A stretch of 32,668 nt of DNA, taken from the NCBI GenBank assembly GCA_030765135.1, contig JAVCDC010000018.1:1-32668 (forward strand), read 5' to 3'. Below are positions 6,369-31,384 of this stretch, one piece after another; the stretch's first letter is position 1, and every line of letters starts with the position of its first letter. The position numbers and the translations under genes were made by a program. Below the pieces are notes generated by a model. It was not told where the DNA came from. It made no database searches and worked only from the letters and a program-made list of their open reading frames with translations. Source of the stretch: Candidatus Tritonobacter lacicola. Lineage in GTDB: Bacteria; Auribacterota; Tritonobacteria; Tritonobacterales; Tritonobacteraceae.

Positions 6369-6436
6369 AACCGCGGATTTTACGGATTAGGCTGATTAAT
6401 CTCAAACAATCCGTTCAATCCGTCTAATCCGCGGTT
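6369..6436. repeat. AACCGCGGATT-type palindromic repeat, copy 2 (intact)
   Basis: The 68-bp element between the nuoE- and nuoF-like genes has perfect 11-bp terminal inverted repeats, AACCGCGGATT (6369-6379) and AATCCGCGGTT (6426-6436). The interior repeats the GGATTA/TAATCC theme. TTTA is found on both outer sides, a possible short target duplication. It should form a strong hairpin in the operon mRNA. Confidence 0.75.
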
Positions 6437-25493: not shown

Positions 25494-25546
25494 AAAATAA
25501 AAAACCGGTCCGCCGCTTTTCGCTTGAGCGATCTTCGGCAGCCCGG
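25494..25546 (-). terminator. Intrinsic terminator overlapping the riboswitch 3' arm
   Basis: On the minus strand CCGGGCTGCCG (about 25546-25536) can pair with CGGCGGACCGG (25515-25505), with about one mismatch and one GU pair. TTTTTTATTTT follows at once (25504-25494). The 5' half of this stem is also the closing strand of the c-di-GMP aptamer, so the two folds exclude each other. Confidence 0.65.
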
Positions 25547-25655
25547 CCGTCTTTCCCTTCGGCGACTAGGTACAAGCTTTTTCAGCCGTTCGGACTAAGA
25601 CCCGTGACTTTGCGTCCCACGGTTTCCCGTGGTTTGCCCTTTCGGACCTTTTTCC
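25536..25655 (-). ncRNA. Cyclic di-GMP-I (GEMM-I) riboswitch
   Basis: The minus strand reads GGGCAAACC, then CCACGG-GAAA-CCGTGG (a perfect stem with a GNRA tetraloop), then GACGCAAAGTCACGGGTCT and a third stem, and closes with GCCGGGCTGCCG. These are the conserved blocks, in order, of the GEMM-I aptamer. The P2 tetraloop and the GACGCAAAG.CAC junction are especially diagnostic. The third stem is longer than in Vc2. The overlapping terminator predicts that ligand binding blocks terminator formation, so c-di-GMP would turn on the downstream surface-protein genes. Confidence 0.82.
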
Positions 25656-27465: not shown

Positions 27466-27580
27466 TCAAACCACAGAGCACACGGAGCTCACGGAGAAGA
27501 TATTAAAAAAATTCGTGAAAACTTGTGCTGACGAAGATCCTGAGCGTAGTCGAAGGGAGCGAAGCAAAAGTATTCGTGTA
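27466..27580. repeat. Dispersed CCACAGAG / GAGCGTAGTCGAAGG repeats
   Basis: The gap between nrnA and lemA holds accacagagcacacggagctcacggagaa-type units and a gatcctgagcgtagtcgaagg unit. A relative of the latter (actgagtttagttgaagg) lies near 14966. Both are familiar intergenic repeats of GC-rich environmental bacteria. No gene is visible. Confidence 0.55.
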
Positions 27581-28202: not shown

Positions 28203-28278
28203 GGACGCTGATTTTCTCAGATCTTCGCTGATTTATCTTTTTCCAATAATCTTAATGATCTGCATTAATCTGCGTCCC
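28203..28278 (-). mobile_element. Solo palindromic repeat (MITE-like) with 5-bp flanking duplication
   Basis: Read on the minus strand, the element starts GGACGCAGATT and ends AATCAGCGTCC, with AAATG directly before and AAATG directly after it. Its left 32 bases differ at about five positions from the left side of the GxxExxY-bearing element, and its right 29 bases (ATCAGCGAAGATCTGAG and on) differ at about one. It lacks any gene. Confidence 0.7.
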
Positions 28279-28331
28279 ATTTGCTTTTTTAGGTCAATTT
28301 GAGTTATCCAGTTGCTCATTAATCCTTTTTT

Positions 28332-28791
28332 GGACGCTGATTTTCTCAGATCTTCTCTGATATTGTTTCATTGATCTGTGTCATATTCATTTTCTTCTAT
28401 TATCAAATGCCTTTCGCTTCACCTCTGGATGAACACCAAAGTTTAGAAGCAACCCAACTTCTATCTTTGTAGCTTTTAAATAATTTAGTAATTGAGCCTC
28501 ATATTCTTTCAACAAGCTCTTTGCCGCCTTAATCTCTACAATGACTTTATCATCCACTATGATATCTGCAAAATATTCTCCGACAACTCGCCCATCATAC
28601 AGGACTCTTATGGGAACTTGCGCCGAACATTTAAGGCTGTATTTGCTCAACTCGATCACCATTGCATTTTCATACACCTTTTCCAAAAATCCATACCCTA
28701 AAGTGTTGTAGACATTATAAAAGGTTTTTATGATCTTCTCAGTCAAATCAACATGTTTGTAATCCTGATAATCTGCGTTCATCTGCGTCCC
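28332..28791 (-). mobile_element. Gene-bearing palindromic element enclosing the GxxExxY gene
   Basis: The left end (minus strand) is GGGACGCAGATGAACGCAGA and the right end is GAAAATCAGCGTCC. Both ends match the solo element at 28203-28278, whose middle is replaced here by the GxxExxY gene. The flanks AAAAG and AAAAA are near-duplicates. Confidence 0.6.
28387..28782 (-). CDS. GxxExxY protein (PD-(D/E)XK nuclease-like)
   Basis: This 131-residue protein carries the name-giving motif G31-F-L-E34-K-V-Y37 and a PD-(D/E)XK-like core: D73 (YFADIIV), E83 and K85 (VEIKAAK). The family is small, often multicopy within a genome, and of unproven function; the fold suggests DNA cleavage. Its ATG (28782) lies inside the repeat arm, so residues MNADYQDY are repeat-encoded, and no later methionine is available before residue 41. 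The base composition is far more AT-rich than the GC-rich flanking genes, which suggests transfer. It separates the GIDE and lemA genes. Confidence 0.85.
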   Translation of the reverse strand: MNADYQDYKHVDLTEKIIKTFYNVYNTLGYGFLEKVYENAMVIELSKYSLKCSAQVPIRVLYDGRVVGEYFADIIVDDKVIVEIKAAKSLLKEYEAQLLNYLKATKIEVGLLLNFGVHPEVKRKAFDNRRK

Positions 28792-29780: not shown

Positions 29781-31034
29781 TCACCCTTGTTCGGATGTCC
29801 ACTCCAGCATACTCAAGGCCCTGTCTGCTATGGTTTTCTGAAGTTGTTCAGTCATAGCCGCATCACCCTTTTCGAACGGCGTTCCAACGGCGGCAAGCTC
29901 TTCCAGGATGATCTGGCAGAGCTCGCTTATTCGCTCACGTATCATTGGCCAGCCAAGGCGCGTCTCTTGCGCCATCTTCTCCCAATTATCAATAGTGAGC
30001 GTATCGAGTGATTTGCTGCCACCGATCTTCATCGCCAGATTCTTCGAGAGTTCCGGCCAGGCAAGTGTGCAAACAAGGTCATAGAATGGCGATAGTCTGC
30101 GTTCACCGCCTCGGTACAGGATCGAATAGTTCTTGCCGTGCGCATCGGCATTCCCGATTACCACATTAAAGATCAATGCATCGATGAAGTCGCGAATATC
30201 CACAACAGGTGCGGTGGACCATTCGCGCAGCAGTGAAATGCAGTCCCGAAGCAGTGGGCCTCCCTCTTCCTGGTACTTTCGCTCCGGTGGAAATCCGAGT
30301 GCCTGACAGAAGTCCTCCTGGTGCAGTCGTGTGATAGTGCCGTCCGTACCGATCAATCGGTCATACCGTCGAATCAGAATGCACGCTTTCTCGCCGACGA
30401 GACGATACTCAACGGGAGGCACGTTCAGTCCAACGGCACTTGCCAACTTCATGCACAAGATTTCGTTGGCGACCAGTCCGGGAAAACGGTCCGGTTCCGG
30501 CTTCAGGATGTGGGAACTCGGCGTATCACCGAGGGGCAGACATATCTTGGCGTCATGCACAACGACGGGTAATTTGTCCTGAGCGCCGGCCAGAGACAGA
30601 CGGACGCCCTCCTTGCCGACCATTAGTGGGCGACGAGGAAGCTCGGCTACCACGTCCTGCAATTCTATCTCGCTCAATTCGCGCATCCGGGTGTCCTCTG
30701 GATATGGCGGCGCAGTACCTTCTGGAAGCAGACTCACGGCTCCTGCACACTCTCCTCCTATTCGCTCCAGCATGGCGAAATCATTGCGCTCACTGATTCC
30801 AAGGATCGCAGCTACCTTTTTCCGAGGGTCTTCATCAGGCAGTATCCCGGCGAAGAAAGGTCTGGCCTTCTTCCCCCGGAATACCTCCGATTGGAGAGGC
30901 AGCGATCGCGAAAGGGGCATTGCATTTGGCTGGATGAGCCATACCTCATCGTAGCAGAACTGCATCAAACCGCTCTCGTCTTGCTCCAGAGATCCGACCC
31001 TCTTGCCATTCAGGTAAACAGTCAGGCGCTTCAT
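29781..31034 (-). CDS. hipA: HipA-type serine/threonine kinase toxin
   Basis: This 417-residue protein has the HipA couple domain (LTVYLNGKRVGSLEQ... FFAGILPDE) and the HipA kinase core. Visible are the loop GVRLSLAGAQDKLPVV containing the autophosphorylation-type serine, SHILKPEPDRFPGLVANE, IRRYDRL, the catalytic-loop NADAHGKN and the metal-binding PFYDLV. The length is normal and all key residues are present, so it looks functional. HipA kinases phosphorylate aminoacyl-tRNA synthetases and arrest growth. Its ATG overlaps the hipB stop by 4 bp (31031-31034), the usual coupled arrangement. It follows an attC-like site on the same strand and may be part of a cassette. Confidence 0.93.
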   Translation of the reverse strand: MKRLTVYLNGKRVGSLEQDESGLMQFCYDEVWLIQPNAMPLSRSLPLQSEVFRGKKARPFFAGILPDEDPRKKVAAILGISERNDFAMLERIGGECAGAVSLLPEGTAPPYPEDTRMRELSEIELQDVVAELPRRPLMVGKEGVRLSLAGAQDKLPVVVHDAKICLPLGDTPSSHILKPEPDRFPGLVANEILCMKLASAVGLNVPPVEYRLVGEKACILIRRYDRLIGTDGTITRLHQEDFCQALGFPPERKYQEEGGPLLRDCISLLREWSTAPVVDIRDFIDALIFNVVIGNADAHGKNYSILYRGGERRLSPFYDLVCTLAWPELSKNLAMKIGGSKSLDTLTIDNWEKMAQETRLGWPMIRERISELCQIILEELAAVGTPFEKGDAAMTEQLQKTIADRALSMLEWTSEQG

Positions 31035-31270
31035 GGTTTCTCGCGTTTGCCCGCGTCATCGCCGGGGACGTCTATCTGGACCCTAAGCCCCAAGGCCTGA
31101 ATTACGTGGAGGAGCTTTCCGATCTGACAAGTCTGCTTGCCCTTCTCAAGATCGACGATGAAGCGCAGACCGGTGCCGCAGGCCATCGCCAGCTCTTTCT
31201 GGGTGACCTTTAGTTGCTTACGCCTTGCACGAACTGTAGTGCCAAGTTGCTCTGGATTCTGGATATTCAT
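31031..31270 (-). CDS. hipB: HipB-type XRE antitoxin/repressor
   Basis: This 79-residue protein has a helix-turn-helix of the Cro/CI type (VRARRKQLKVTQKELAMACGTGLRFIVDLEKGK), the HipB form in which GLRFI.DLE.GK is typical, and then a short beta/tail region. ATG at 31270 (MNIQNPEQLG) is chosen over ATG at 31318 because the nearest operator-like palindrome (31272-31285) sits directly before it. It should bind those palindromes, repress hipBA and neutralise HipA. Confidence 0.88.
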   Translation of the reverse strand: MNIQNPEQLGTTVRARRKQLKVTQKELAMACGTGLRFIVDLEKGKQTCQIGKLLHVIQALGLRVQIDVPGDDAGKREKP

Positions 31271-31271
31271 G

Positions 31272-31384
31272 TTACTGTTCGGGAGTATTCCATCGAATCG
31301 GCGATAAGTCAAGATCATTATTTACCGTTCGGTAACAAATGGCCTGCACTCAGGTCCAGTACTGCCATTATTCCCGATCGGTAA
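31272..31384. promoter_or_regulatory. Three HipB-operator-like palindromes at about 50-bp spacing
   Basis: The sites are TTACTGTTCGGGAG (31272-31285), TTACCGTTCGGTAA (31322-31335, nearly perfect dyad) and TTCCCGATCGGTAA (31371-31384). Starts are 50 and 49 bp apart, about five helical turns, so repressors would lie on one DNA face. They span the region upstream of hipB. Confidence 0.65.

Follow-up and report, generated by a model that had tools for sequence, protein, structure and literature searches.

The window, by which we mean the whole stretch of 32,668 nucleotides that was analysed, carries between a LemA and a GIDE gene a small GxxExxY gene enclosed in a palindromic element, together with a shorter palindrome of the same kind that lacks the gene (Table 1). 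The two profile scores of the encoded protein compare with cut-offs of 35 bits for TIGR04256 and 22 bits for PF13366. No known RNA family was detected at the element with Rfam. The window also holds a riboswitch and a HipBA-like gene pair.

Table 1. Coordinates of the features in the window (strand: -, reverse; +, forward;., unassigned).
Feature	Position	Strand	Remarks
GxxExxY (PDDEXK_3) gene, 131 aa	28387..28782	-	TIGR04256 137.5 bits; PF13366 139 bits
Gene-bearing palindromic element, GGACGC...GCGTCC	28332..28790	-	459 bp; read directly from the sequence
Left arm (gene orientation), GGACGCAGATGAACGCAGATTATCAGGATT	28761..28790	-	iteron ACGCAGAT, ~10-bp period
Right arm (gene orientation), CAGAGAAGATCTGAGAAAATCAGCGTCC	28332..28359	-	27/28 identical to the right end of the solo
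Gene-less (solo) palindrome, 75 bp	28203..28277	-	ends as in the gene element, ~17-bp middle
Second solo palindrome, 68 bp, GGATT iteron class, AACCGCGGATTTTACGGATTAGGCTGATT...AATCCGCGGTT	6369..6436	.	iteron analysis
Lone CRCVRAG-class arm, ACCACAGAGCACACGGAGCTCACGGAG	27470..27496	+	arm search; partner not found
c-di-GMP-I-GGC riboswitch	25533..25647	-	Rfam 63.4 bits; upstream of an 878-aa dockerin-like/beta-propeller ORF
HipA-like kinase gene, then small helix-turn-helix gene	29781..31318	-	HipBA-like pair

Read in the orientation of the gene, the gene-bearing element and the solo palindrome share their start, GGACGCAGAT, and their end, AAAATCAGCGTCC. Their left 30 bp agree at 25 positions, counted by eye, and their right 28 bp at 27, with the gene standing in place of the solo's middle. 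An earlier note, made from this DNA alone, had described these shared arms, and direct reading bears the description out; both elements are real, and the note had run their far ends one base too long (28332-28791 and 28203-28278). The only in-frame ATG of the gene falls in the left arm, as had also been noted, and the same arm was picked up by iteron-pair detection as a GAT-class iteron pair. A third copy (L012, G000:C34:78958) lies on another contig of the source genome. It is gene-less and has the same asymmetric ends, agreeing with the gene-bearing element at 28 of 30 positions on the left and 22 of 28 on the right around a different 18-bp middle, and it lies nested in a palindrome whose iterons are of a different type, ACCACGGAGCACACTGAG...CTCCGTGCTCTCCGTGGT. 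A search of the 3.2-Mb genome with a 24-bp arm, allowing up to three mismatches, gave no match beyond these three sites, and its reversed-pattern control gave 0. Because this third, gene-less copy has the same ends, and because the ends are shared around a short middle, the solo is most readily interpreted as an internal-deletion derivative of the gene-bearing element, and the gene copy in the window as the autonomous copy.

Arms as such, though not their sequence, are general among GxxExxY genes. As a rule these genes are enclosed by inverted arms of two to four short iterons with a period of 7-10 bp, in elements of about 420-690 bp (median 497), and the arms agree within a locus and differ from locus to locus. 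An inverted arm score of at least 14 was reached by 77% of 149 non-redundant loci, as against 1.9% of 375 same-contig pairs and 2.0% of 398 other ORFs; pairing flanks across loci reached it in 24%. A wider flank search raises the armed share above 77%, some of the sub-threshold loci having their arms further out. In 32 loci from the source genome and its relatives, the two flanks of one gene match each other as inverted repeats much more closely than do flanks taken from different genes, and a scan of public genomes, which added 80 loci from about 20 phyla, Methanothrix and Methanophagales included, gave the same arm result. The GxxExxY family as a whole spans archaea and about 20 bacterial phyla. 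The source genome has nine PF13366 matches, which correspond to about seven genes, several of them broken; nearly all are armed, and the iteron differs from gene to gene, as in CCGCAGAGgCGCTGAGaaCGCAGAG, CCGCGGATTaaACGGATTagGCGGATT and CCACGAATTTCACTAATTAACACGAAT. The single repeat family envisaged at the outset thus gives way to one iteron for each gene. That short repeats in AT-rich intergenic DNA merely mimic arms has a negligible probability: the window element (L004) does score poorly on its own in a plain inverted alignment, but the idea is refuted by the cross-locus, same-contig, other-ORF and four-helix-bundle controls and by the three same-ended copies in the source genome.

Long PF13366 relatives appeared arm-less at first look; five of them, of 265-278 aa, turned out in the wider flank search to have outer arms of longer-period, 15-bp iterons. 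Among proteins of this length are L197 (G042), L198 (G038) and L200 (G031), with 15-bp iterons such as AATTGCAGGACTATTG.

Our comparison of proteins and arms revealed that the gene and its arms form a unit. CRCVRAG iterons accompany 74 of 78 GxGLLE proteins and 2 of 27 other proteins (Fisher p 8e-18), the CRCVRAG label changes 5 times on a tree of 105 proteins, as against 25.4 times when shuffled, and arm similarity is correlated with protein similarity (Mantel rho 0.36, permuted maximum 0.14), with the reservation that kinship among the sequences makes these figures too strong as p-values. In 25 of the 27 remaining proteins, most of them GxGFLE, the iterons are of the GGAT, CAGGAT or GAAT kind. 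Arm similarity declines with protein similarity, also among proteins less than 60% identical. The protein tree disregards host phylum, as horizontal spread would give, and iteron class tracks protein clade across phyla. Common descent of gene and arms suffices for this correlation, which therefore shows a unit, not recognition.

The GxxExxY protein itself has the features of a nuclease. Among 74 relatives D73 and K85 do not vary and the conservation of E83 is at least 90%, in agreement with the PD-(D/E)XK-like core that the earlier note had proposed from these three residues. Q97 and Y101, also conserved at 90% or more in the 74 relatives, form what we take to be the QxxxY motif of RecB-type nucleases. 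A sequence search for a solved homologue gave none that was convincing. The AF2 model of the window protein (pLDDT 92, pTM 0.84) finds its best PDB matches by Foldseek in Cas4 SSO0001, LHK-Exo, lambda exonuclease and archaeal Hjc, with TM values of 0.4-0.56; the Cas4 match, 4ic1, has an E of 9e-5 in this search with a predicted model. One GxxExxY relative matches the PADLOC Cas4 profile (E 1e-4). In 11 measurable pairs dN/dS is 0.02-0.13, which indicates purifying selection and therefore a protein that is made and selected. On the model and the conserved positions, GxxExxY would be a small, putative nuclease of the RecB/Cas4/lambda-exonuclease type, and a fold used on DNA ends and junctions would suit an extruded hairpin as substrate. 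It resembles the Cas4, RecB-family, lambda exonuclease and Hjc proteins in predicted fold and in the D-ExK and QxxxY positions, but it is half their size, lies in a palindromic element of its own and has no CRISPR, helicase or phage context.

Comparison of orthologous sites, in every case between species and not strains, revealed that the elements are gained and lost. In Undibacterium the trpE-trpG junction was read in 42 species: in 27 the two genes abut (0 bp, TAA directly followed by ATG), and in 10 a full GxxExxY element lies between them, with a further 5.5 kb inserted at one of these junctions (L247). The remaining junctions hold one decayed remnant (L235) and otherwise either a short spacer or a REP-like repeat that is unrelated. 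The occupied species are scattered on the tree. The close relatives L205 and L210 have flanks that are 94-97% identical around elements that are only 67.5% alike; the distant L208 and L209 have flanks 82-84% alike around elements 93% alike, so that one element has moved between distant species. The identity of the L209 flanks to those of L208 falls close to the element. Elements occupy trpE-trpG in other Betaproteobacteria too (L065, L077, L080). The unrelated REP-like repeat is present at the junction in three Undibacterium species (L243, L228, L226), so that trpE-trpG may be a general landing site. Homologous recombination between the flanking genes could account for transfer at this junction. 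The L114 element of Trichlorobacter occupies a site that is a spacer of 27-39 bp in related genomes, and once it is removed in silico the spacer that is left is collinear and of ordinary length. A single Sulfotelmatobacter site was found occupied by the complete element (L091), by a palindrome that lacks the gene (L375), by an element whose gene is truncated (L376) or by a repeat of unrelated kind (L374), and in many genomes it is empty. For Methanothrix, a relative has 10 bp between the genes that flank L072. The relatives' loci were thus found armed at the frequency given above and with empty sites in four genera, and the check by which the earlier note's reading could have been overturned did not overturn it. 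It is highly probable that the element gains and loses sites and travels together with its arms.

A very improbable account of these data would be that the element is immobile and that the pattern reflects ordinary deletion together with the exchange of operon segments by homologous recombination, with the arms as regulatory hairpins of a host gene. The flanking genes of donor and recipient are indeed homologous, and the decayed L235 and truncated L376 show ordinary decay. However, the flanks of L209 outside the transferred element are not donor-like with respect to L208, sister species hold two different elements, one replacing the other, and the family occurs in unrelated sites, in up to nine places per genome.

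The ends and flanks of the elements set them apart from classical insertions. Elements of the CRCVRAG class end in TT[C/A]ACC...GGT[G/T]AA, with covariation between the ends only at the base adjoining ACC. At the window, the solo is flanked by AAATG on both sides and the gene copy by AAAAG/AAAAA (four of five positions); these repeats, pointed out earlier, are real, but the third copy, with AGATA/CATAC, has none. Their interpretation as a 5-bp target duplication did not survive: no direct repeat of 2-10 bp rose above shuffled controls at 54 loci with clear ends, and for this reason the AAATG pair is probably due to chance. Direct repeats at 14 solo elements likewise showed no excess, a 5-bp repeat being present only at the window solo. 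A 7-bp alignment overlap in Undibacterium, considered as a duplication, is explained by the stop and start codons that meet at the junction. The idea that the elements entered palindromes already present was also rejected, the outer flanks being non-complementary beyond position -1 except at about three loci. Carriage by phages or plasmids was sought, with 0 hits in 50,697 phage records, 7 in 72,556 plasmid records, and 3 viral contigs; this scarcity counts against the reading as a mobile element driven by its nuclease.

Gene-less palindromes are abundant. The source genome has 88 two-iteron CRCVRAG arms (17 + 11 and 27 + 33, two strands), with 0 in the reversed-pattern control; they far outnumber its GxxExxY genes, few of which bear such arms. 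Some form clean palindromes of 74-97 bp, some are nested and many are single. The GGATT class of the second solo in the window is the class around another GxxExxY gene of the source genome (L003). The idea that every arm cluster of this genome is strictly nested was discarded, as only some clusters nest. At L288/L012 (G000:C34), L291 and L375 (G154), the palindrome of one iteron type lies inside that of another, as if newer elements tended to insert into the centre of older ones.

What surprised us most is that the chassis is shared. About 15 genes of the source genome encode four-helix-bundle proteins (PF05635, S23/IVP), a family followed here at loci L043-L052 and L253-L281, and locus-specific inverted iteron arms surround 83% of 35 such loci and 0 of 91 controls. 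Two unrelated small proteins, GxxExxY and the four-helix bundle, share one chassis. Because the four-helix-bundle genes do so without the nuclease, we have here our strongest ground for doubting that the nuclease alone moves the element, and it may not be the mover of the chassis. It is conceivable, though unlikely, that what moves or propagates itself is the arms, by way of some process of the host or of replication such as template switching, hairpin-primed synthesis or recombination, and that the two proteins are alternative passengers which ride in the loop and are retained for a different function, for example hairpin binding or processing. This possibility draws on the two protein families on one chassis, on the excess of solo palindromes over gene copies and on the nesting of solos in one another. 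However, a pure passenger is not expected to track iteron class so tightly across phyla, and the conservation of the catalytic residues and the low dN/dS also speak against it.

The four-helix-bundle family connects these elements to the intervening sequences of 23S rRNA, a unit of about 430 bp with inverted arms and one small S23/IVP gene that has been called selfish (PMC4990558). The architecture is alike, and the PF05635 family of that unit is found here in iteron arms, but the GxxExxY units lie in intergenic regions of protein genes (the window, trp, Trichlorobacter and Sulfotelmatobacter loci, the last three all between protein genes) and encode an unrelated protein. As rRNA intervening sequences they would be in the wrong place and with the wrong protein, and this identification was rejected. 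Another possibility, to which we assign a still lower probability than to passenger proteins, would be an element acting on the RNA level in a similar manner, with the arm hairpin cut from the transcript, insertion into operons thereby tolerated, and the protein acting on RNA or at the insertion step. The S23/IVP family in the same inverted arms and the position of elements between co-transcribed genes (trpE-trpG) would fit such a role. Nevertheless, no locus among those examined was seen to lie within an rRNA gene, and as fold matches tRNA splicing endonucleases rank below Cas4, lambda exonuclease and Hjc.

Taken together, the GxxExxY elements point to an undescribed family of mobile DNA. We put at roughly 0.55 the probability that a small mobile palindromic element has GxxExxY as its protein-coding gene, and that the protein is a nuclease which recognises and nicks or cuts its own iterons; that it acts on its own arms to move the element is what we infer, with the same modest inclination. 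The nuclease would recognise the iterons of its own element, probably once the arms extrude as a hairpin or cruciform, and would nick or cut there. Host repair would then copy the element into intergenic DNA with no target-site duplication, solo palindromes could be copied likewise, in trans, and the matching of arms within a locus might be kept by hairpin-templated correction. In the searched literature, which was without preprints and most subscription journals, we came upon no account of GxxExxY as a mobility gene, as the earlier note had supposed.

RAYT is an HUH tyrosine (Y1) nuclease, whereas GxxExxY is a PD-(D/E)XK protein by profile and fold, and on account of this wrong nuclease the GxxExxY units cannot be taken as RAYT/REP. 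The two systems nevertheless have in common many dispersed, non-autonomous palindromes per gene with related ends, here 88 CRCVRAG arms and few genes; REP/REPIN palindromes with their RAYT transposase likewise comprise few genes and many dispersed gene-less intergenic palindromes (PMC3116915, PMC3733652). REPs have fixed GTAG/CGTC tags, in contrast to the iteron array that each GxxExxY gene has of its own, and the comparison would fit by analogy, not by descent. With MITEs and their insertion sequences (PMC10969869) the elements have in common that gene-bearing and gene-less copies share inverted ends, as in the three copies of the source genome, and that an internal-deletion derivative lies next to a gene-bearing copy. 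They differ in the lack of a target-site duplication at the 54 loci and of a DDE transposase, and in terminal repeats that are iterons varying between loci. The autonomous-element-with-MITE layout first suggested for the window therefore stands as regards the unit, its gene-less derivatives and its presence and absence at sites, and fails as regards the target duplication, for which reason a classical IS with its MITE was rejected. As in PD-(D/E)XK homing endonucleases, a small nuclease gene has repeatedly been gained at one site (trpE-trpG in Undibacterium and at L065, L077 and L080), but GxxExxY has palindromic arms, gene-less derivatives, many unrelated sites and no intron or intein. In their working the units thus resemble RAYT/REP and IS/MITE, and in architecture rRNA intervening sequences.

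Tentatively, at somewhat less than even odds, these elements could constitute a new class of bacterial and archaeal mobile elements, in which a clade-specific nuclease reads fast-evolving iteron ends, with no target duplication, self-nesting, solos driven in trans and a chassis like that of S23/Avd, the rRNA intervening sequences being a special case. Both GxxExxY and the four-helix-bundle S23/IVP proteins are widely annotated without an established function, and their common architecture gives each a testable role. It would also account for many palindromic repeats of the CACAGAG/CGCAGAG type in environmental genomes. If the nuclease does read the iterons, hundreds of natural protein-iteron pairs would provide a data set for a DNA-recognition code.

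Two further arrangements involve other repeats. The 175-bp CRCVRAG palindromes L282 and L295 have common outer flanks, TGTGGGTAGAGTGA...AAGTAATTGGCTGTTA[CG]CCACA, and on account of these shared flanks they seem to be carried inside another repeat with TGTGG ends. At L006/L008 (G000:C46, C39), as seen only across contig ends, a GxxExxY gene is apparently split by an insert of about 170 bp with 14-bp inverted ends, AGCCTGAATTATTC, which appears to be a different small element within the GxxExxY element.
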